The notes below the pieces were generated by a model. The model searched no databases. It saw only the letters and a program-made list of their open reading frames with translations, and was not told the DNA's origin. The translations under genes were made by a program, and so were the position numbers. This document shows, piece after piece, positions 2,455 through 18,640 of a stretch of DNA of 32,692 nucleotides. Within the stretch, counting starts at the first letter, position 1. Each line of letters begins with the position of its first letter. Origin of the DNA: Selenomonadaceae bacterium (lineage in GTDB: Bacteria; Bacillota; Negativicutes; Selenomonadales; Selenomonadaceae); the NCBI GenBank assembly GCA_017446845.1, contig JAFSOQ010000112.1, forward strand, positions 1-32,692, read 5' to 3'.

Positions 2455-3207
2455 ATGGAAAAAAATTTTTTAACTTACAACATGGAAGTCAACGGACTGT
2501 TGCAGGAAGTCAAATTCAGCAAAGAGGCAATCGAAGAAATTTTTATGCCGTTCCTGCACGGGTTGACCGATTTAAAAATGACAATGGACAGAAAAGTTAT
2601 CGCGTACCTTGTCTCGCCGCCCGGAGCAGGTAAATCGACGCTGGCACAATTTTTGGAGCAATTAAGCCGCGAACGTTCCAACGAAGTCGATACGATTCGC
2701 GCACTCGGCATGGACGGTTTCCACTACACGGCGGCTTATATGAACGTCACCAAAGTCGAACGCGACGGCGAAGAAGTTTTGATGCGCGACATTAAAGGTG
2801 CGCCCGAAACTTTTGACATTGATTTACTCGTCGAGAAAATTCGCGAGGTACGTTCGGAAGGCACCAACTGGAATATTTACGACAGAAAAATTCATGACGT
2901 CTTGCCCGATTATTGGAGCGTCGAAGATGATATTCTTTTAATCGAGGGAAATTATCTGCTGCTCAAAGATGCGGGCTGGACTAACGTCCGAGTGCTTGCG
3001 GATTATTCTGTCTTCATTGACGCCGAACCTAATCTTTTGCGCGAACGATTAATCAATCGTAAAATCGCGGGCGGCAAGTCTCGTGAGGAGGCAGAAAGAT
3101 TTTTCGACTTCAGCGACAGCAAAAATATCGAACGCGTCTTGAAAAATTCTGCGCGGGCTGACGAAACTTGGAAACTTTTGCCCGACGGCGATTTTGAAAA
3201 AAATTAG
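2455..3207 (+). CDS. P-loop nucleoside/sugar kinase family (uridine kinase/phosphoribulokinase-like)
   Basis: A 250-aa P-loop kinase of the uridine kinase/phosphoribulokinase-like group often annotated as nucleoside/nucleotide kinase family. The Walker A motif is PPGAGKST (residues 55-62). A substrate-loop motif MDGFHY follows (86-91), then an acidic strand ILLIEGNYLLL (about 160-170). The C-terminal part LLRERLINRKIAGGKS matches the lid region with catalytic Arg residues. ATG 2455 has a strong RBS (GAGGAGG). The physiological acceptor (nucleoside, sugar or pantothenate-like) cannot be told. The gene closes with a long heptad-repeat hairpin. Confidence 0.8.
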   Translation: MEKNFLTYNMEVNGLLQEVKFSKEAIEEIFMPFLHGLTDLKMTMDRKVIAYLVSPPGAGKSTLAQFLEQLSRERSNEVDTIRALGMDGFHYTAAYMNVTKVERDGEEVLMRDIKGAPETFDIDLLVEKIREVRSEGTNWNIYDRKIHDVLPDYWSVEDDILLIEGNYLLLKDAGWTNVRVLADYSVFIDAEPNLLRERLINRKIAGGKSREEAERFFDFSDSKNIERVLKNSARADETWKLLPDGDFEKN

Positions 3208-3301
3208 GAGTTAGGAGTTAGGAGTTAGGATTTAGGATTTAGAGAAAAACCCTTAACTCCTAAATCCCAACTCCTAACCCCCGGACAGGAATGAGGAATT
3301 G
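3205..3301. repeat. Heptad-repeat block TTAGGAG/TTAGGAT with inverted arm
   Basis: Tandem heptads TTAGGAG (four) and TTAGGAT (two) are followed, after a short A-rich loop, by an inverted arm of CCTAACT/CCTAAAT-type heptads and then by an AGGAATGAGGAATTG segment. The arms can pair into a long imperfect hairpin. The block begins at the stop codon of the kinase and runs into the TTG start of the next gene. Confidence 0.85.
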
Positions 3302-4226: not shown

Positions 4227-4255
4227 TTGCATTTTTTTGCTCAGTGTGTTATAAA
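4227..4255 (+). promoter_or_regulatory. Promoter of CRISPR array 1
   Basis: TTGCAT (4227-4232), 17-base spacer, TATAAA (4250-4255). The spacer ttttttgctcagtgtgt and the -35 box are identical to those before array 2 at 8849-8877, so this is a shared leader core. Confidence 0.75.
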
Positions 4256-4495
4256 ATCTACGGTTCAAATTTGGTTCAAATTTTAAACGGAAAGTGTTTT
4301 CGGGTCACGCAACGACGTCGTTTAATCAAAACATTCTCCAAATCGAAAGGAGCGCGCCAATTCAACAAGCTCAAGACTTTTATGAAACCTATATGATTGA
4401 TTTTTTCAGAGAACGCAATCGAACAGCGGGCTTTTCCGATCACTTTCCAAAAGCCCGAATTTCGTGGCGTTGCGACACTCCCCGCAAGGCGTACT
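4256..4495 (+). other. CRISPR leader region of array 1
   Basis: This 240-base AT-rich stretch between the promoter and the first repeat contains no convincing gene. It holds a perfect 9-bp inverted repeat (CGGGCTTTT near 4427, AAAAGCCCG ending near 4457) and a GAAAGGAG sequence at about 4339 without a good ORF behind it. In array 2 the promoter is only about 25 bases from the first repeat, so this long leader is specific to array 1. Leader bases near the first repeat are normally where adaptation proteins bind; no such proteins are encoded here. Confidence 0.5.
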
Positions 4496-5338
4496 GTCGC
4501 GCATGCCTCCTTACCGTTTACGGTTTTGAAACTTCTGTCGCCCAACTTGCAGCTTCATCTACTTTGATGACGCCAGTCGCGCATGCCTCCTTACCGTTTA
4601 CGGTTTTGAAACTTTGGGCTGCGGGTATACGGTTACCATACAAATCAAAGAAGTCGCGCATGCCTCCTTACCGTTTACGGTTTTGAAACTAGAGAGGAGT
4701 TCGTCCGGGAAGAGTACGATCGTTTCACCGTACAGTCGCGCATGCCTCCTTACCGTTTACGGTTTTGAAACTACTCATGATCATGAACCGAGTCTGGATT
4801 GCCCGTTTGAAGTCGCGCATGCCTCCTTACCGTTTACGGTTTTGAAACACGATTCATCAACTCTACAGCTTTCTCAAACTTGCGGGCCTCTAGTCGCGCA
4901 TGCCTCCTTACCGTTTACGGTTTTGAAACTTCCAGCCATCTATATTACTTCCTTTCAAAATTTCAATATAATTGTCGCGCATGCCTCCTTACCGTTTACG
5001 GTTTTGAAACATTTATACGATGTCTGCAGTCCTTGAGGCTGACATTAAAACCTAGTCGCGCATGCCTCCTTACCGTTTACGGTTTTGAAACCTGCGATTA
5101 TCAATTACCTTGAAGAAGTCGATTTTGCTAAACAGTCGCGCATGCCTCCTTACCGTTTACGGTTTTGAAACTGGCACGGCCACTTGTGCGGTAAACGTCA
5201 ACGTCAAGCATGTTGTCGCGCATGCCTCCTTACCGTTTACGGTTTTGAAACTCGTTAAATCTACGATCAGGAATCTCAACTTTAATGGTCGGAGTCGCGC
5301 ATGCCTCAGAATCCCTACCCGTTCACGGTGTCTGAAGT
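4496..5338 (+). CRISPR. CRISPR array 1: 10 intact repeats plus degenerate terminal repeat, 10 spacers
   Basis: Ten identical 37-base repeats beginning GTCGCGCATGCC and ending CGGTTTTGAAAC start at 4496, 4576, 4653, 4735, 4812, 4893, 4974, 5055, 5135 and 5215. Spacers are 40-45 bases (42 for the last). Each repeat contains the stem ACCGT-TT-ACGGT. The eleventh repeat, from 5294, has a 7-base insertion (AGAATCC) and a changed 3' half (GTGTCTGAAGT) and marks the leader-distal end. Direction is left to right: promoter left, degenerate repeat and terminator right. Long spacers and a nearby CARF-HEPN gene suit a type III-linked array, but no cas operon is present. Spacer targets cannot be determined here. 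Confidence 0.98.
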
Positions 5339-5340
5339 AA

Positions 5341-5373
5341 AAAAATCCCGTCGGAAAACTCGGCGGGATTTTA
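5341..5373 (+). terminator. Terminator after CRISPR array 1
   Basis: AAATCCCG and CGGGATTT flank a short loop and are followed by TTTA. It lies directly after the degenerate repeat, the same layout as after array 2 (9266-9298). Confidence 0.8.
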
Positions 5374-5391
5374 CTTTTGGCAGACGAGCGC

Positions 5392-5427
5392 AAAAAAAAT
5401 AGCCGCTACGCTTTCACACAACGGCTA
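5392..5427 (-). terminator. Terminator of the minus-strand micro-ORF operon
   Basis: Read on the minus strand, TAGCCG and CGGCTA form the stem and are followed by eight T residues (5392-5399). The first bases of the stem are the stop codon of the last micro-ORF (5425-5427). It faces the array 1 terminator, so the two transcripts converge here. Confidence 0.8.
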
Positions 5428-5469
5428 AAGAATTTTGTCATCTCTGTTATCCGAGTTATCACTTTGCAT
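5425..5469 (-). CDS. Micro-ORF, 14 aa (MQSDNSDNRDDKIL)
   Basis: Last ORF of the minus-strand micro-ORF series. ATG (5469-5467) follows GGGGGTGA by about seven bases. The peptide is very hydrophilic and acidic, unlike the hydrophobic peptides before it. Its stop codon starts the terminator stem. It may be a real peptide or only a translated tail of the transcript; no family is recognised. Confidence 0.35.
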   Translation of the reverse strand: MQSDNSDNRDDKIL

Positions 5470-5507
5470 TTTTCAATCACCCCCAAATTTTTATCGATAA
5501 GTTCAAA

Positions 5508-5561
5508 TTACAACCGCGGGAACGGGAAGGGGAACGGCATCGGGAACGGGAACAACATCAT
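5508..5561 (-). CDS. Micro-ORF, 17-aa Phe-Pro repeat peptide
   Basis: ATG at 5561 is preceded by AAAGGAGGTG at normal spacing. The peptide MMLFPFPMPFPFPFPRL alternates Phe and Pro because the DNA is a tandem hexamer (TTCCCG units). I know no matching family. A membrane-active or signalling peptide is conceivable; hexamer slippage producing a meaningless ORF is the main alternative. Confidence 0.45.
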   Translation of the reverse strand: MMLFPFPMPFPFPFPRL

Positions 5562-5599
5562 AAATCTCACCTCCTTTCAAAACTCAGACGCTGTAAGAA

Positions 5600-5641
5600 T
5601 TAATCCCGAAGGAGCAACCACAACAACAACAACTCACCCAT
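5600..5641 (-). CDS. Micro-ORF A, 13-aa Leu-rich peptide MGELLLLWLLLRD
   Basis: ATG at 5641 follows AAAGGAGGTGAGAGC, an excellent Shine-Dalgarno context. The peptide is a single very hydrophobic stretch ending in Arg-Asp. It is one of two copies 78 bases apart that differ only at Leu/Trp position 7. The RBS and the peptide are both conserved between copies, which favours translation. Function unknown; a small membrane peptide is the natural reading. Confidence 0.55.
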   Translation of the reverse strand: MGELLLLWLLLRD

Positions 5642-5677
5642 GCTCTCACCTCCTTTCAAACTCGGACGCTGTAAGAA

Positions 5678-5719
5678 TTAATCCCGAAGGAGCAACCACC
5701 ACAACAACAACTCACCCAT
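5678..5719 (-). CDS. Micro-ORF B, 13-aa Leu/Trp-rich peptide MGELLLWWLLLRD
   Basis: Tandem duplicate of micro-ORF A with the same RBS (AAAGGAGGTGAGAGC before ATG 5719) and the same ends MGELLL and LLLRD; the only peptide change is Leu to Trp at position 7. The codon for position 7 is TGG here and TTG in the other copy. Function unknown. Confidence 0.55.
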   Translation of the reverse strand: MGELLLWWLLLRD

Positions 5720-5750
5720 GCTCTCACCTCCTTTCAAGAAGAAAACTTAC

Positions 5751-5867
5751 TTAATCGCGGCGGAAGACTGAAACTGCTGCGGAGGCACCGGCGACGAACA
5801 TTGAGGCAGATTCGTAAGCAAGAGCGGATTCGACTGCGGAGGCAACCAACGGCGCGAGAAAAAACAT
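5751..5867 (-). CDS. Small hydrophobic protein, 38 aa
   Basis: ATG at 5867 follows GAAGGGAG by nine bases and starts two bases after the stop of the preceding micro-ORF, so the two would be translationally coupled. The product begins MFFLAPLVASAVESALAYES, is rich in Ala, Val and Ser with small-residue spacing, and ends VFRRD, sharing the charged Arg-Asp end of the 13-aa peptides. One membrane helix, or a bacteriocin- or holin-like peptide, is plausible. No known family is recognised. Confidence 0.55.
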   Translation of the reverse strand: MFFLAPLVASAVESALAYESASMFVAGASAAVSVFRRD

Positions 5868-5869
5868 AC

Positions 5870-5992
5870 TTAACAGCTCCCTTCAATCGATGACAGATAT
5901 TTAATTTTCAAACAGCTTGGTCGTCCCTGACCTTGCAAGCGAAGTATAGCAGGAAGTTCTGAGGAAGTCATTTCAAGTTTCCTGCGAATCAA
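5870..5992 (-). CDS. Possible 40-aa ORF (TTG start) inside repeat element copy 1
   Basis: A TTG at 5992 follows AAAGGAGGTGCC. The predicted peptide begins with TTG-encoded Met then IRRKLEMTSSELPAILRLQG. It reads entirely through a copy of the 117-119 bp repeat (promoter plus hairpin) and ends two bases before the 38-aa gene. The strong RBS argues for translation, perhaps only to couple ribosomes to the next gene. The repeat nature argues that the peptide itself may not matter. Confidence 0.3.
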   Translation of the reverse strand: MIRRKLEMTSSELPAILRLQGQGRPSCLKIKYLSSIEGSC

Positions 5993-6004
5993 GGCACCTC
6001 CTTT

Positions 6005-6109
6005 CTATCGCAGACGATATTTTTTCAAGCAGCTTGGTCGTCCCTGACCTTGCAGGCTAAGTTTAGCAGGAAGTTCTGAGGAAGTCATTTCAAGTTTCCT
6101 GCGAATCAA
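6005..6109 (-). CDS. Possible 34-aa ORF (TTG start) inside repeat element copy 2
   Basis: TTG at 6109 follows AAAGGAGGTGCC. The peptide has the same first 15 residues as the ORF in the neighbouring copy and stops at TAG 6007-6005, which directly precedes the next AAAGGAGG. In the next copy to the right, the RBS is degraded to AAAGCAAGG and no comparable ORF exists. Treat it as a doubtful coding region. Confidence 0.25.
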   Translation of the reverse strand: MIRRKLEMTSSELPAKLSLQGQGRPSCLKKYRLR

Positions 6110-6296
6110 GGCACCTCCTTTCTATCGTCGACAATATTTTTTTCAAGCAGCTTGGTCGTCCTTGACCTTGCAGGCTAAGTTTAGCAGGAAGTTTTGAGGA
6201 AGTCTTTTTAATTTTCCTGCGAACTGAAACCTTGCTTTCTATCGTCGGCGATATTTAATTTTCAAGCAGCTTGGTCGTCCTTAACCTTGCAAGCGC

Positions 6297-6325
6297 AGTA
6301 TAGCATGAGATTTCGCGGCAGTCTT
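6297..6325 (-). promoter_or_regulatory. Probable promoter of the minus-strand micro-ORF operon
   Basis: On the minus strand AAGACT (6325-6320), 17 bases, then TGC-TATACT (-10 at 6302-6297), an extended -10 with a weak -35. The same arrangement, AAGACT-17-TAATAT, occurs in the fifth element near 8.8 kb, supporting the assignment. Confidence 0.5.
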
Positions 6326-6349
6326 TTCAATTTTCCTGTGAATCAAAAC

Positions 6350-6378
6350 TTGCGCCAAAAATTTTTTTCTGCTATAAC
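6350..6378 (+). promoter_or_regulatory. Promoter of the small CRISPR-accessory gene and CARF-HEPN gene
   Basis: TTGCGC (6350-6355), 17 bases, TATAAC (6373-6378) preceded by TGC (extended -10). It is back-to-back with the minus-strand micro-ORF promoter, mirroring the arrangement before array 2. Confidence 0.65.
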
Positions 6379-6408: not shown

Positions 6409-6777
6409 GTGCAAAAAGTTTTCGTTAATCATACAAATCACCCTTCGGCGAGATGGAACGCCGAACAAATTTCGGCGGCAAAATTTTACGGCGAGATTCA
6501 AGATTTCCCGTTTCCCGCGATAAATCCGCGAGCCGACCGCGCAGATATTATCGAACTGGCTAAAGAAAATCTCGAAAAAATTTTGGAACTTAAGCCCGGT
6601 GCCGTCCTTTGCCAAGGCGAATTCAATTACACTTTTGCGCTGGTCGAACGACTTAAAGCTTTGGGGATAACTGCTTTGGCGGCGACGAGTGAACGAGTTG
6701 TCAGCGTAGAAATTTTGCCCGACGGTTCTTCGCGACAAATTTCTACTTTTCGTTTTGTCAGATTCAGGGAATATTAA
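6409..6777 (+). CDS. Small Rossmann-like CRISPR-accessory protein, 122 aa
   Basis: GTG start at 6409 with AGGAG seven bases upstream. The predicted order is strand (KVFVNHTNH), helix (SARWNAEQISAAKFY), strand (EIQDFPFP), helix, strand (AVLCQGEFNYTF), helix, strand (ITALAATSERVV) and a closing beta hairpin ending FRFVRFREY: a compact alpha/beta fold with conserved-looking NHPSxxW and QGEF elements. It ends one base before the CARF-HEPN gene, so they are one operon. Several small proteins of this size next to CARF nucleases are known or suspected cyclic-oligoadenylate ring nucleases (Csx15/16/20-like). Membership here is inference from size, fold and context. Confidence 0.7.
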   Translation: MQKVFVNHTNHPSARWNAEQISAAKFYGEIQDFPFPAINPRADRADIIELAKENLEKILELKPGAVLCQGEFNYTFALVERLKALGITALAATSERVVSVEILPDGSSRQISTFRFVRFREY

Positions 6778-6778
6778 A

Positions 6779-8530
6779 ATGGAAAAAAATATAATGCTGG
6801 CATTCGTCAGCCCGGTAAGTGCCTCTTCGCTCGGCAAGCCGATAAATTATCCCGACATACACGGGCGGGCTTATGAGGCAATTCAAACGAACGAATCGGC
6901 AATAATTTACGTCGAACGAATGCTCGGAGAAAATTCCTTGTCGAAAATTTTTCTGATAGTAAGTGATTCGGTAAAACGCGGCAAAGTTCCGTCCGATAAC
7001 GAATTCGGCGACGTAACTCATTTGGAATTTTTACGGCGGAGAATCGCCAAAGAATTTCCCAAGCTCGCCGAAAAATTTTCCGCGCAAGATTATTCGGAAG
7101 AAGGCAGCGGCTCGACCAAACTTGAGAAAAATATTTTGCAAATCGCCAAGATAGCCGACGCCGTCACGGATTTTGCACGCGAAAATTTCGGCGACACGAT
7201 AACGGTGCACGCAGATATTACCGGCGGCTTTCGTCATACGTCAATGCTTATGATGTCCGTCATTCAACTTTTAAGGTATCGCGGAATAAAAATCGGCGAA
7301 ATTCTTTATTCCGACCCGACAAGTCGCACGGTGTATCGCGTGACTGAAATTCAAAGAATGTTTTCGCTGATAACGGGCGCAGATGAATTTGTTAAATTCG
7401 GGAGCGTGACGGCTTTGCAAGATTACTTCGGAGAAAATCCGCCGCCCGCCGTGAAAAATTTACTCGGCGCGATGAATCGTTTTTCCGAGGCAATAAAAAT
7501 TTGTCGGACGAGCGCGATTGAAGACGAATTAAAAAATCTCGGTCAACACATTCAGACTTTCCGCGAAAATCCCGACAAAGATTTGAAAAGCGAACTATTC
7601 GCGAAAATTATCGACACGATTGAATTTGAATACGGGAAATTGATTCACAGCACGAGCGGGCGATTGGATATAATTCGCTGGTGCATGGAAAAAGATTTCT
7701 GGCAGCAGGCAATGACGCTTTGCACCGAGTGGCTCCCCGAAGAAATTATCGCCCGAAAAATTTACATGCCGCGTGATTCAAAGATTATAAAAACTGCCGA
7801 GCTTGAAGGCGTCAACTTCGGGCGGAATTGGCAGCAACAACTTATCATTGCTTATCAAGGCGCGGAAAAATCTTTCGACGACAACGATGAGGACGAATTT
7901 TGCAAAAGTTTGCGCGATGTCTTGGAAAATTTCTCGACAAGAAAAATCCGTTCGGATAAAATTTTCGGCGAGCTTAATAATTTTTCCAAAGAATACGGCG
8001 CGGGCGAAATTCCCTTTGCACTTTTTAAAAAAGGTCGGCTAAAAAATTTCCAAAAAAAATTTCCTTTGCTTGCCGCTGCTCTCAAGATAATTCACGACGA
8101 ACGCCAAAAAAGTTTGGACTACAGAAAAAATTTCAGCCAATTTCTTCAAACGATTTACTACGAAAAAATTCCTAAACTTATCGCAAATTTACCCGCCGAA
8201 AAAATTCTTAACCTGTTCAAGATTGACCGCACCAAAATTCCAAAGAGCGGCGTTGAGTTGATTGATAAAGCGGAAACCAAATGGGAAAATCGCGAGAAAA
8301 TTTATCGGGAGATGTTCGACAAAAAAATTATTCATTCCGAGTTCGATGAACGCATTGTATTAAATTTTCTGCGCGGCTACTACGATATTCGCAACGAACG
8401 CAATCAAATTAATCACGCCAATGCTCAAGCCTCAAAAAATATTTCCGACTTGAAACCGATGATTGAAAGTTTTCTCGGCGAGCTTGAGAAAATAAAAAAA
8501 ATGCCGCTGCGCTCTTCACGCAACGACTAG
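6779..8530 (+). CDS. CARF-HEPN ribonuclease, Csx1/TM1812 (Csx2) family
   Basis: A 583-aa CRISPR ancillary effector. The N-terminal CARF domain shows the TM1812-type ligand motif HADITGGFRHTSMLMMSVI (from residue 144), followed by RGIKIGEILYSD. The C-terminal HEPN domain ends with the catalytic R-x4-H motif RNQINH (Arg541, His546). Members bind cyclic oligoadenylates made by type III Cas10 and then cut RNA non-specifically. ATG 6779 is chosen over the in-frame TTG at 6755 because AGGG lies eight bases before it and it avoids overlap with the upstream gene. No Cas10 gene is in the window, so the signal must come from elsewhere in the genome, or the module is orphaned. Confidence 0.9.
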   Translation: MEKNIMLAFVSPVSASSLGKPINYPDIHGRAYEAIQTNESAIIYVERMLGENSLSKIFLIVSDSVKRGKVPSDNEFGDVTHLEFLRRRIAKEFPKLAEKFSAQDYSEEGSGSTKLEKNILQIAKIADAVTDFARENFGDTITVHADITGGFRHTSMLMMSVIQLLRYRGIKIGEILYSDPTSRTVYRVTEIQRMFSLITGADEFVKFGSVTALQDYFGENPPPAVKNLLGAMNRFSEAIKICRTSAIEDELKNLGQHIQTFRENPDKDLKSELFAKIIDTIEFEYGKLIHSTSGRLDIIRWCMEKDFWQQAMTLCTEWLPEEIIARKIYMPRDSKIIKTAELEGVNFGRNWQQQLIIAYQGAEKSFDDNDEDEFCKSLRDVLENFSTRKIRSDKIFGELNNFSKEYGAGEIPFALFKKGRLKNFQKKFPLLAAALKIIHDERQKSLDYRKNFSQFLQTIYYEKIPKLIANLPAEKILNLFKIDRTKIPKSGVELIDKAETKWENREKIYREMFDKKIIHSEFDERIVLNFLRGYYDIRNERNQINHANAQASKNISDLKPMIESFLGELEKIKKMPLRSSRND

Positions 8531-8577
8531 GAAAAAATTTTTGTCTGTGTTATCATTGTGCAATTCAAATCAACTCC

Positions 8578-8637
8578 TCAGAAAAATACAAGCGAACCAA
8601 ACCGCGACGAAAACTCCAAATCCATAACGAAACCCAT
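8578..8637 (-). CDS. Micro-ORF, 19 aa (MGFVMDLEFSSRFGSLVFF)
   Basis: ATG at 8637 follows TTGGAGGTGACAAGTT, a very good RBS. It is the second ORF of a minus-strand pair, 21 bases after the 20-aa ORF. The peptide is aromatic and hydrophobic at its end. No family is recognised; the RBS and the parallel with the 5.4-5.9 kb micro-ORFs are the support. Confidence 0.45.
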   Translation of the reverse strand: MGFVMDLEFSSRFGSLVFF

Positions 8638-8658
8638 AACTTGTCACCTCCAAAATTT

Positions 8659-8721
8659 TCAACGCTCGGAGCCGAGAACCATCAAACCCGTTATCACGAA
8701 TCCTGCCACGAACCACGGCAT
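8659..8721 (-). CDS. Micro-ORF, 20-aa membrane peptide (MPWFVAGFVITGLMVLGSER)
   Basis: ATG at 8721 lies nine bases after GAAAGGAGG; an ATG at 8727 in the same frame is too close to the RBS. The peptide is one hydrophobic segment with glycines and a charged SER end, suiting a small membrane protein. It lies directly downstream of the fifth promoter/hairpin element, the position held by the micro-ORFs of the other cluster. Function unknown. Confidence 0.55.
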   Translation of the reverse strand: MPWFVAGFVITGLMVLGSER

Positions 8722-8756
8722 TTGCATTTGCCTCCTTTCGAGCGGTGACGTTATTT

Positions 8757-8848
8757 AGTTTTCAAGGGGCTTGGTCGTCCTTGACCTTGCAAGCGTATAT
8801 TATCAAGAAATTTTGCGGCAGTCTTTTCAATTTTCCTGTGAATCACGC
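8757..8848 (-). repeat. Fifth copy of the promoter/hairpin element
   Basis: A diverged copy of the 117-119 bp element (CTTGGTCGTC at 8770). On the minus strand it has AAGACT, 17 bases, TAATAT preceded by TGA, then the same CTTGCAAGGTCAAGGACGACC hairpin core and a GAAAGGAGG RBS. It drives the 20-aa and 19-aa micro-ORFs and stands back-to-back with the array 2 promoter. Confidence 0.75.
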
Positions 8849-8877
8849 TTGCATTTTTTTGCTCAGTGTGTTATAAG
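8849..8877 (+). promoter_or_regulatory. Promoter of CRISPR array 2
   Basis: TTGCAT (8849-8854), 17 bases, TATAAG (8872-8877). The -35 box and spacer are identical to the array 1 promoter at 4227-4255; the first repeat starts about 25 bases downstream. Confidence 0.75.
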
Positions 8878-8901
8878 ATTTGCGTTTCAGTTATTTGAAA
8901 A

Positions 8902-9263
8902 AGTGCGCAACCCTCCTTACTGCTTGCGGTTTTGAAACTCTTCCAACTGTTCCATAGAGAGTTCTTCACGCATATACGATTGCGCATGCCTCCTTACCGT
9001 TTACGGTTTTGAAACCCGCCAGTGTAAGTGACGGTGATTATTTCTGGTTTTGTTTTCAGTTGCGCAGTTCCTCTTACCGCTTGCGGTTTTGAAACTCCAT
9101 CGTTTTGACGTATTTATCTACCATCTCCCAACTACGATTGCGCAGCCCTCAGAATCCCTACCCGTTTACGGTTTTGAAACATGTTCGCATACACGAGCTC
9201 GTCGACGATGAAATTGCAGTCGCGCATGCCTCAGAATCCCTACCCGCTTGCGGTGTCTGAAGT
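8902..9263 (+). CRISPR. CRISPR array 2: five repeats (diverging), four spacers
   Basis: Repeats at 8902-8938, 8979-9015, 9059-9095, 9137-9180 and 9219-9263 are variants of the array 1 repeat; spacers are 40, 43, 41 and 38 bases. All but the last end CGGTTTTGAAAC. The stem changes from ACCGT/ACGGT to ACCGC/GCGGT in repeat 3, keeping pairing. Repeat 4 carries the AGAATCC insertion inside the array, and the last repeat repeats the degenerate end of array 1 (GTGTCTGAAGT). The array looks older or decaying, yet it keeps a promoter and a terminator. Confidence 0.95.
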
Positions 9264-9265
9264 AA

Positions 9266-9298
9266 AAAAAATCCCGTCGGGAGAGTCGGCGGGATTTT
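9266..9298 (+). terminator. Terminator after CRISPR array 2
   Basis: AAAATCCCG and CGGGATTTT stem, same type as after array 1. It ends 17 bases before the ATG of the first WYL gene; the ribosome-binding site of that gene lies just behind it. Confidence 0.8.
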
Positions 9299-9314
9299 GC
9301 GTTATGGAGGAAAA

Positions 9315-10544
9315 ATGATTAAAGCTCAAAAGACATTGAACAAATTCAATCGCTCACACGCGGGCTTGAGGAAATTTTTGCGGCTGCTGTCCTACGGTTG
9401 CTATCATCGAATGCTTTTCATGCGCCACGAGATTACGCCGCGCAGTTACGATGATTCCTTGCGGCAAGTCAGATTTTTTGTCCCCGAAAAAAATTTGCAG
9501 GTGACGCGCTACGACAAGTGCTCATATTTTACTTTGGTCGGAGATTTTCGGCACGGCACGAAAAATTTTTACTACTCGTCATTTCTCTTGAAAACGCTGT
9601 TGCCCGATCATTGCCTTTATAAAATCGTCCTCTTGCAAGTGTTGGAAGGCGCGCAGCCTTTGACGTTGCCGGAAATTTTAAATCGGACGGCGGACATTTT
9701 GATTGAGCACAATCCGCAAATAGAATCGGGCACGACGGATTTAATGCAGAGTTTGCGACGCCGCCTGAACGAGTTGACGGAATCGGGAATAGTGCGCCGC
9801 CTTGAATCGAAGAATAAAATTTTCTACGAAAAAATTTCCAATCCGCTCGGCGAACTTTCCGAGACTGAAATAAAAATTCTTTATAACGCGCTGAAATTTT
9901 TCCGTAATGTATCGCTGATTGGAACGGCGGGATATTTTTTGTGCGACAGTCTGAAAAATTTTTACGCAACGCCCGAACCCGTCCGAGAAATTTTTCAATT
10001 CAAGAATAATAATTTTGCGCGAATTCTCGACGATGATATTTTGCTTGCGATTACCGAGGCATTTCGTCGGGGCAAAAAAATTTTGGTCGAACGCGAAAAT
10101 AAATCGCCCGTGAAAGTCGTGCCCGTTGCCGTCGAAACCGATTTTCTTTACGGCAGGCAATATCTCGTTGCGCTCAAGCAAAAGGATTTAATGCGACTTC
10201 GCGTCGAGAAAATTACGGCGATAAAAATCCTCAAGGACGATGCGGAAAAATTTTCATCGGCGCGAGAAAAATTACGGGAAGTTCGATTGCGCGTGAAGTT
10301 CAAAGATTCGGAGGAACGCCGCCGCCGCGAAAAACTTTTGACGGAAGAATTATCCGCCCGAATCGTCGAAGAAACGGCAGGCGAATTTATTTGCGCAGTA
10401 GCGACGCTTGACCCGTTGCAAATTTATCCGCAGCTGTGGAAGTTTCAACCTTGGGCGGAAATTTTATCGGGCGCGGACGGTCTTCGCGAACGAATCAAAG
10501 CGGACACATTGGAGGCGTTAAAAAATTATGCGGAGCCTCTTTGA
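9315..10544 (+). CDS. WYL-domain transcriptional regulator-like protein (409 aa)
   Basis: ATG 9315 is chosen because GGAGG lies five bases upstream; the in-frame TTG at 9297 is inside the array terminator. The N-terminal third has helix-rich DNA-binding character with a helix-turn-helix-like block (PLTLPEILNRTADIL...LRRRLNELTESGIVRR, about residues 120-165). The WYL-type barrel lies at about residues 255-315 (KILVERENKSPVKVVPVAV, then YGRQYLVALK). WYL proteins sense nucleic-acid or nucleotide ligands and often regulate CRISPR and other defence loci. The position immediately after an array supports a regulatory role, not demonstrated. It overlaps the next gene by 17 bases. Confidence 0.8.
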   Translation: MIKAQKTLNKFNRSHAGLRKFLRLLSYGCYHRMLFMRHEITPRSYDDSLRQVRFFVPEKNLQVTRYDKCSYFTLVGDFRHGTKNFYYSSFLLKTLLPDHCLYKIVLLQVLEGAQPLTLPEILNRTADILIEHNPQIESGTTDLMQSLRRRLNELTESGIVRRLESKNKIFYEKISNPLGELSETEIKILYNALKFFRNVSLIGTAGYFLCDSLKNFYATPEPVREIFQFKNNNFARILDDDILLAITEAFRRGKKILVERENKSPVKVVPVAVETDFLYGRQYLVALKQKDLMRLRVEKITAIKILKDDAEKFSSAREKLREVRLRVKFKDSEERRRREKLLTEELSARIVEETAGEFICAVATLDPLQIYPQLWKFQPWAEILSGADGLRERIKADTLEALKNYAEPL

Positions 10545-11457
10545 TGACACAAAAAATCCGGTCTTCCGACTGCTGTGCCAAATCGTCAATGAAATCGGCG
10601 CGGGAGCAAAATTGACGCGAAAAGAAATTCTCAATCGAATTTTTGCCTTGCCCGAATTTGTTTACCTTGAATCGCCCGAAACCGAGCGCGAGGAAAAAAT
10701 TATCGATACGTTGTTCAGATTCAACGGCGCGGGCTTTGCCGAAGTACCTTTGGCGAAAAATTTTTCGTTGCCGCCGGCGGACGCCGAACTTTGCTGGTTG
10801 AGCGCGGTGCTTTCGGACGAAGAATTATTTTTCCTGTTGCCCGAAACCTTGCGGCAAAAATTATCCGCCCGATTAAAAAATTTCCCGCCGTTGTACGAAA
10901 AAAATTTTTGGCGAAAACTTCGGGCGGACAAGTCGGCGGCTGATAAAATTTTTTCGGACAAGTTATCGGTCGCGGTCAAAGCTTTGACGTTGCAGAAAAA
11001 AATAATTTGCGGCAAGGAACTTTTGACGCCGTGCCGCTTGGAGTACGATTTATTTTCGGATAAATATTTTTTGCTTGTCCTGCGTGCGCGAACTTTTGAA
11101 AAAATTTCCGTCGAAACTTTGGACGCATTGACTTTGAGTGATGAAAATATCCCGTCGGACGTCGAGGAGCAGTTGAAAAAATTTTACGCCGAAAACGTCG
11201 CCGAAGTCACAATCAAAGTTCGGAACACGCGCAACGCCGTAGAAAGATGTTTTGCGCTGTTCGGTTCGTTCGACAAAAAATCCCGCCTGCAAGACGACGG
11301 GACATATTTTTTAACGATAAAATATTGCACGTTCGACGCGGAAGAAATTTTCGAGAAAATTTTTTCTTTGGGCGCGACGGCTACTGTTATCTCGCCGAAA
11401 GATTTCCGCGAACGAGTCATTAAAAAATTTTTGGCGATACAAGCTCTGTACGAATGA
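10528..11457 (+). CDS. Second WYL-like protein (309 aa)
   Basis: Starts at ATG 10528 within the end of the first WYL gene, so the two are co-translated. An N-terminal helical region contains a possible helix-turn-helix (GAKLTRKEILNRIFALPEF, about residues 26-44). The middle holds a weak WYL-like beta segment (TPCRLEYDLFSDKYFLLVLRA, about 167-187). The C-terminal part (VAEVTIKVRNTRNAVERCF) resembles the WYL C-terminal extension. Motifs are more degenerate than in its neighbour. Paired WYL proteins commonly form hetero-assemblies or activator/repressor couples; this is inferred from context. Confidence 0.65.
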   Translation: MRSLFDDTKNPVFRLLCQIVNEIGAGAKLTRKEILNRIFALPEFVYLESPETEREEKIIDTLFRFNGAGFAEVPLAKNFSLPPADAELCWLSAVLSDEELFFLLPETLRQKLSARLKNFPPLYEKNFWRKLRADKSAADKIFSDKLSVAVKALTLQKKIICGKELLTPCRLEYDLFSDKYFLLVLRARTFEKISVETLDALTLSDENIPSDVEEQLKKFYAENVAEVTIKVRNTRNAVERCFALFGSFDKKSRLQDDGTYFLTIKYCTFDAEEIFEKIFSLGATATVISPKDFRERVIKKFLAIQALYE

Positions 11458-18182: not shown

Positions 18183-18257
18183 TCAATGCCGATCGAGAAA
18201 TTTGCAAATGTAATGCGTAATCACACCTGCCAAGATCGACAAAGCGAAACTAATCAT
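18183..18257 (-). CDS. Small hydrophobic toxin-like peptide 1, 24 aa
   Basis: ATG at 18257 follows AAAGGAGGTGAACGGC. The peptide begins MISFALSILAGVITHY and ends ICKFLDRH: one membrane segment and a short charged tail. The tail motif (K-F/W-L-D-R) is shared with peptide 2, 380 bases away, although the rest differs. A divergent RNA (18360 onward) starts with 14 bases exactly complementary to codons 1-5 and the bases just before them. Size, membrane character, antisense RNA and duplication together match type I toxins such as the Fst/TxpA kinds; homology to a named family is not claimed. Confidence 0.75.
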   Translation of the reverse strand: MISFALSILAGVITHYICKFLDRH

Positions 18258-18562: not shown

Positions 18563-18640
18563 TTAACGGTCGAGCCACTTAATAATAAAGTAAGCTGCGA
18601 CGTTCGCCGCGACACTCACCAAGAAATTGGAAAGCAACAT
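18563..18640 (-). CDS. Small hydrophobic toxin-like peptide 2, 25 aa
   Basis: ATG at 18640 follows GGAAAGGAGGAGACAAGT. The peptide begins MLLSNFLVSVAANVAAY and ends FIIKWLDR, with the same layout as peptide 1 (membrane segment, then K-W-L-D-R). A divergent RNA starting at about 18764 has a 5' end matching the plus strand of codons 1-6 with two mismatches, one of which leaves a G-U pair in the RNA duplex. The two peptides have diverged together with the 5' ends of their RNAs while the RNA bodies stayed constant, which argues for matched toxin-antitoxin pairs. Confidence 0.75.
   Translation of the reverse strand: MLLSNFLVSVAANVAAYFIIKWLDR

Follow-up and report, generated by a model that had tools for sequence, protein, structure and literature searches.

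Conserved micro-peptide operons in a type III-D CRISPR island of Quinella, candidate targets of a PafBC-like WYL regulator pair

Introduction

CRISPR accessory genes have been catalogued largely from annotated proteins, and open reading frames (ORFs) of micro size usually go unannotated. The CreT mini-ORFs of CreTA are similar in look to the ORFs described here, being very short and having strong ribosome-binding sites (PMC8501985). Like CreTA, the operons of this study place short ORFs with strong ribosome-binding sites inside cas loci; whereas CreTA is found in type I systems, they belong to type III-D and encode conserved peptides with common codons. Type I toxins, e.g. those of the Ibs, Fst/Ldr and TisB kinds, offer another comparison. 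They are small hydrophobic proteins with antisense RNA partners, and a review covers the Clostridia set (PMC6563280). The peptides of the present locus are likewise mostly hydrophobic, 12-40 residues long and present in tandem copies, but several unrelated peptides share one mRNA, no antisense RNA was found for them, and their place in the CRISPR island is fixed. The operons also resemble the ancillary effectors of type III systems (CARF/SAVED) as an accessory output of a III-D locus, although their peptides have no ligand-binding domain and are, to our knowledge, far smaller than any described type III ancillary effector.

On the regulatory side, PafBC is a heterodimer activated by single-stranded DNA, which enables the housekeeping RNA polymerase to work at PafBC's own promoters from a position between the DNA and the -35-contacting sigma domain (PMC11804915). 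The present locus is similar to PafBC and DriD, both activators that sense single-stranded DNA, in its linked HTH-WYL-WCX pair (fused in Veillonella) and in candidate target promoters with an asymmetric element but without a good -35 box. The candidate targets differ from those of PafBC/DriD, being micro-peptide operons of a CRISPR island and not DNA repair genes. The WYL fold is also compatible with repression, as in BrxR and CapW.

Genomic setting

The window, i.e. the whole 32.7-kb stretch of DNA that was analysed, corresponds to contig C95 in a MAG of 73.6% completeness from Quinella, a genus of rumen Selenomonadaceae whose same-genus Cas10 relatives include 'Quinella sp. 1Q7'. The cas genes of this MAG lie on a separate contig (C112), and its CRISPR system is type III-D as judged by relatives with PADLOC models, the set Cas10d, Cas7, Csx10, Csx19, Cas6 and Cas1/2 being present. 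Both CRISPR arrays of the window are read on the + strand; alongside them are csx20, one CARF-HEPN gene and a pair of WYL genes that overlap. Array 1 (4490..5330, +; repeat GTCGCGCATGCCTCCTTACCGTTTACGGTTTTGAAAC, the last repeat degenerate) is read in the + direction from a leader of promoter-like sequence at about 4237-4270 and is closed by a terminator at 5339-5377. Micro-ORF operon A follows on the minus strand, then csx20 (6409..6777, +), a Csm6/Csx1-like CARF-HEPN effector (6779..8530, +), operon B on the minus strand, array 2 (8896..9262, +) and, beyond it, the two WYL genes. The original prediction had set the micro-ORFs between a CRISPR array and a CARF-HEPN gene; the array is in place, while the next gene on the other side is csx20 and the CARF-HEPN gene is one further. 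Operon B (8495-8850), csx20 and the two WYL genes extend its list, and its proposal of a CRISPR accessory island is borne out by a strong link that is conserved among relatives. Many type III-D loci of Quinella are without micro-ORF operons, though most compared genomes are MAGs and an apparent absence may reflect incompleteness.

Elsewhere in the window, a ParE-type toxin gene is found at 2167-2436 (+; Pfam E 6.6e-12), and runs of short repeats of the TTAGGAGTTAGGA type occur in inverted arrangement at 959-984 and 3204-3281. Two near-duplicate units at 18183-18257 and 18563-18640 (minus), each with a strong ribosome-binding site and repeated flanks, encode hydrophobic peptides of 24-25 residues, MISFALSILAGVITHYICKFLDRH and MLLSNFLVSVAANVAAYFIIKWLDR, which give weak sub-threshold matches (E 0.003 and 0.09) to the type I toxin family NF047374 of NCBIfam. 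In a relative (G107, L045 6180-6310), a two-repeat mini CRISPR array of opposite orientation lies between operon A and cas10.

The micro-ORF operons

Operon A runs on the minus strand from 6350 to 5392. It opens with four direct tandem copies of a 117-nt promoter/leader unit (5880..6350), as the original prediction of amplified promoter elements had it, and continues through five micro-ORFs: A1 (5751..5867; 38 codons, MFFLAPLVASAVESALAYESASMFVAGASAAVSVFRRD, Ala-rich family), A2 (5678..5719; 13 codons, MGELLLWWLLLRD, LLW family), its tandem copy A3 (5600..5641; 13 codons, MGELLLLWLLLRD, LLW family), A4 (5508..5561; 17 codons, MMLFPFPMPFPFPFPRL, Phe-Pro family) and A5 (5425..5469; 14 codons, MQSDNSDNRDDKIL). 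A5 overlaps the terminator (5392..5427, minus), detected by scan as a hairpin with a 12-pair stem followed by T8 (-13.4 kcal/mol), which agrees with the strong terminator expected there. Two further ORFs with TTG starts lie within the third and the last promoter/leader unit (34 codons, 6005..6109, and 40 codons, 5870..5992, both minus).

Operon B (minus, 8850 to 8495) opens with a fifth unit of the 117-nt type (8734-8850), followed by B1 (8659..8727; 22 codons, MQMPWFVAGFVITGLMVLGSER), B2 (8578..8637; 19 codons, MGFVMDLEFSSRFGSLVFF) and B3 (8527..8568), which has a TTG start and overlaps the terminator at 8495..8529. Both terminal peptides, A5 and B3, are short and charged. Counterparts of A5 are kept in relatives as MQSDKVDKRDKIF... 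and MESDNTDKH..., and those of B3 as MDNDKVSKNF... and MDDAYNTEKTF.

All seven ORFs that had been predicted for operon A (34, 40, 38, 13, 13, 17 and 14 codons) are present on the minus strand at those lengths. Good ribosome-binding sites had been claimed for most of them; those of the 38- and 14-codon ORFs are weaker than AAAGGAGGTG. With a strict rule (Shine-Dalgarno match of at least 5 nt, ATG start, 8-60 codons), the whole window contains nine micro-ORFs, five of them in operons A and B and one more resembling rpmJ. Under this rule operon A has three, whereas 1000 dinucleotide shuffles averaged 0.11 and no shuffle had more than two.

Conservation and selection of the peptides

The peptide families of the two operons (Ala-rich MFFLxP..., LLW, FPFPFP, PWFVAGF and ...VFF) recur with ribosome-binding sites in about ten species. 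A search of 189 family genomes with the 38-residue query detected this Ala-rich family in nine genomes of Quinella, among them that of the window, the weaker matches being backed by locus context. The order of operon A is constant in relatives, i.e. the Ala-rich peptide, the LLW peptide, a Phe-Pro rich peptide and a short polar ORF running into the terminator, and operon B retains the MPWFVAGF... and ...VFF peptides. Copy number and length are variable among relatives (LLW 1-3 copies, FPFP 13-41 residues).

In the proposed frame, pN/pS was 0.53 for the Ala-rich peptide (95% range 0.37-0.73), 0.32 for B1 (0.18-0.50), 0.64 for LLW (0.45-0.82) and 0.61 for B2 (0.31-1.16), the sole family with a bootstrap range past 1. 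Alternative frames gave 0.80-2.01, the values under 1 being a mild 0.80 and 0.92, each from a single alternative frame in two of the families. The alignments were built on amino acids, which slightly biases these values downward, a bias that is limited in alignments so short and nearly gap-free. The comparison with relatives that had been put forward as a check of the ORFs thus shows start, ribosome-binding site and frame kept together with an excess of synonymous change, and translation of the 38-, 13-, 13-, 17- and 14-codon micro-ORFs is well supported by this conservation.

The 34- and 40-codon ORFs fared differently. The original prediction had itself named relatives with retained ribosome-binding sites and lost frames as counter-evidence, and this is what was found for these two ORFs: their frame is not conserved, because G057 reads the corresponding promoter/leader unit in another open frame (MFTGKLKCK...). 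They are probably by-products of the tandem duplication of promoter units.

Hydropathy is positive for all tested conserved peptides of the window except the polar A5, with most GRAVY values at 0.8-1.2. None of the tested peptides matched a family in Pfam or NCBIfam. In other genomes, highly divergent short peptides may have escaped the searches.

Promoter element and leader

A 20-nt element, TTCRCAGGAWWWTTGAWATG or a close variant, lies upstream of the operons, and in 29/34 copies a -10 box is located 20 nt downstream. The four copies of operon A (all minus) are at 6323..6342 (TTCACAGGAAAATTGAAAAG, with a -10 TATACT at 6297-6302), 6204..6223, 6086..6105 and 5969..5988 (-10 TATACT at 5943-5948), and that of operon B is at 8823..8842 (minus). 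The exact 16-mer of the element has 18 matches in 9 of 66 Quinella genomes (0 for the control), all 18 in micro-ORF loci. When the 20-mer is allowed one mismatch, every in-genus match is inside a III-D island, two of these islands being decayed. Outside Quinella, single motif matches are mostly near background (7 vs 2 for the reversed control), with one exception in another family (G207). The element ends at about the expected start of a -35 box, and a good -35 box is absent. An element with a -10 and no -35 box has the shape of an activator-dependent promoter, judging from sequence, and its asymmetry is as would be expected for a heterodimer. An origin of the element in viruses was considered and rejected: it occurs in five IMG/VR contigs, none with such micro-ORFs and three representing the same gene, which was taken as chance.

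The promoter unit has been amplified with species-specific lengths of 117, 106 and 131 nt. A conserved CTTGAAAACTGAATA at the end of the leader is similar to the boxA of rrn operons; the rrn leaders of two relatives (G025 and G037) have a similar CCCTGAAAACTACACA and those of a third (G141) do not, so the boxA likeness is a lead only. A conserved leader RNA was rejected, with no Rfam match, no consensus structure, no covariation and a folding no better than that of shuffles. Pairing of the CCTCCTT of the CRISPR repeat with the ribosome-binding sites of the micro-ORFs was also rejected as not conserved, because the repeats of G072 (C114), G077 and G097 are without CCTCCTT.

The WYL regulators

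WYL1 (9297..10544, +) is a predicted HTH-WYL-WCX regulator, and WYL2 (10528..11457, +) overlaps it, its WCX domain being assigned by Pfam. The predicted folds of both have DriD and PafBC as top matches, followed by CapW and BrxR. Model confidence is modest (pLDDT 64 and 68), with low-confidence stretches in the N-terminal half, and the HTH assignment rests on these models. A sequence search of the PDB with WYL1 gave no match. Two adjacent HTH-WYL-WCX proteins are thus predicted, which fits a PafBC-like pair.

WYL1 is found in 10/10 genomes whose operons were located via a peptide or the 16-mer, compared to 16/66 genus-wide (p=3.8e-8). The association with Cas10 is weaker (8/10 vs 22/66; p=0.0015). 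Operons of G065, G079 and G082 were excluded from these statistics as they had been found via WYL loci. In G053, G097 and G112, operon B and WYL1 are divergently oriented; in the window, array 2 separates the two. WYL1 also occurs with no visible micro-ORF operon in G056 and G081 within Quinella and in most other genera, and it has internal stops in G053 (L044 2111-3825) and G072 (L145), where the operons are intact. In G037 (L187 8685), a small ORF of 49 residues, rich in Ser, Asp and Trp and having a ribosome-binding site, is located between WYL2 and the CARF-HEPN gene.

Operons beyond the genus

In another genus (G173), two hydrophobic micro-ORFs are divergent from WYL1. The exceptional G207 combines a CRISPR array, Cas6, the WYL pair and CARF-HEPN with two micro-ORF operons that have a related element. 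A further genome (G366), probably Veillonella parvula DSM 2008, carries III-D genes along with WYL1 and WYL2 fused into one protein of 814 aa, and its micro-ORF operons, of which there are at least four, have promoters of the CTTAGTTTTYTTGAAT...TATAAT type. Its acidic peptide MDELLDLVIEVAVDAAVDFVLDELFD is recognisably homologous to MDDLLDVVIDVVIDEVIDEVLDELFS of Quinella (z 7.9, 0/2000 shuffles), and its Ala-rich peptide is similar to that of Quinella (z 5.7). Two paralogous operons of this genome give a pN/pS of 0.20 over six peptides.

Proposed function and rival explanations

Conserved peptides, a fixed place and activator-type promoters suggest that the operons are an inducible output of the III-D island. 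Two transcription units would encode micro-peptides only, and the WYL pair would most likely switch them on via the 20-nt element at about the -35 position, as linkage and promoter shape indicate. The mostly hydrophobic peptides would then most likely act jointly on the infected cell, probably at the membrane, halting or killing it beside the CARF-HEPN RNase driven by cyclic oligoadenylate. Activation by the WYL pair upon infection, with the peptides as growth-halting and probably membrane-acting effectors, is given about an even chance. The defence or abortive-infection role originally suggested fits the conserved link to the CRISPR island. We think that membrane-active or otherwise growth-halting peptides are likeliest; regulators of the III-D machinery come second.

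As such regulators or helpers, the peptides might, e.g., inhibit the Cas10 complex or CARF-HEPN or anchor them to the membrane. In favour of this, the peptides have long stayed closely linked to cas10, cas2, CARF-HEPN and csx20, and in the probable V. parvula genome a hydrophobic micro-ORF of 20 residues lies between a related promoter and cas2 and cas1; nevertheless it is unlikely, since peptide sequence and copy number turn over at a rate unusual for parts fitting a conserved complex, and many III-D loci of Quinella do without the peptides. The absence of any toxin-family match weighs against membrane toxins of type I toxin-antitoxin systems, which would be restrained by antisense RNA instead of WYL and which the peptides resemble in size, hydrophobicity and tandem copies. 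A consensus scan of the + strand revealed no antisense promoter in operon A, several different peptides share each mRNA, and the promoters have a common activator-like element, making this explanation improbable.

The ORFs could also be accidents in a non-coding RNA or in promoter debris, with only promoter and leader conserved. Amplification of the units at 117, 106 and 131 nt in different species and the conserved boxA-like leader end agree with this, and the 34- and 40-codon ORFs are such accidents; for the operons as a whole it is very improbable, as no frame but the proposed one gives a pN/pS under 1 (bar 0.80 and 0.92), the value is as low as 0.20 in Veillonella, a homologous peptide is found across families, and the leader has neither a special fold nor covariation. 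Least probable of all is a CreTA-like toxic RNA, in which mini-ORFs deplete the cell's supply of a rare tRNA and a CRISPR guide represses the RNA, despite the strong ribosome-binding sites on very short ORFs within a cas locus. When 126 spacers (22 loci) were compared with 22 operons for a creA-type guide, the matches listed were of chance size (12 nt exact or less); an array of G107, overlapping its own operon region, was set apart, and spacers of the own genome were fully covered. No ectopic degenerate repeat was found, 14/14 repeat matches in the window being inside the two arrays. Mean relative adaptiveness of micro-ORF codons is 0.61-0.92 vs 0.77 for window genes, and consecutive rare codons of the CreTA type, in which the peptide as such does not matter, were not found; codons are ordinary and selection acts on amino acids. 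Membership of CreTA was therefore rejected on the lack of a guide (among the matches listed), of an ectopic repeat and of rare codons.

The preferred reading, i.e. activation of growth-halting peptides by the WYL pair, may extend beyond Quinella. An undescribed, Negativicutes-wide CRISPR effector arm, in which an infection-sensing WYL activator releases a cell-halting cocktail of 10-40-residue peptides, is proposed tentatively, its chances falling somewhat short of even. No operons or modules of such anatomy were described in the open-access literature searched, and novelty rests on this anatomy, not on a demonstrated mechanism. If the proposal is true, type III CRISPR loci have a micro-peptide output under a dedicated regulator, and a blind spot in surveys of defence islands is opened. 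The question is directly testable because the genome matching the cultured type strain V. parvula DSM 2008 has at least four operons.

The same genome has two further features of note. At L279 6200-6900, a related promoter is followed by a hydrophobic micro-ORF of 20 residues, a larger ORF that is also hydrophobic, another micro-ORF and, directly after it, cas2-cas1. At L279 7000-9600, the CRISPR arrays are interrupted several times by a repeated element of about 110 nt inserted in the repeat (TATGCGCCGAAGGGTGCGAGAC...), which holds an ORF, MRSAHLKYLNEVKVK.
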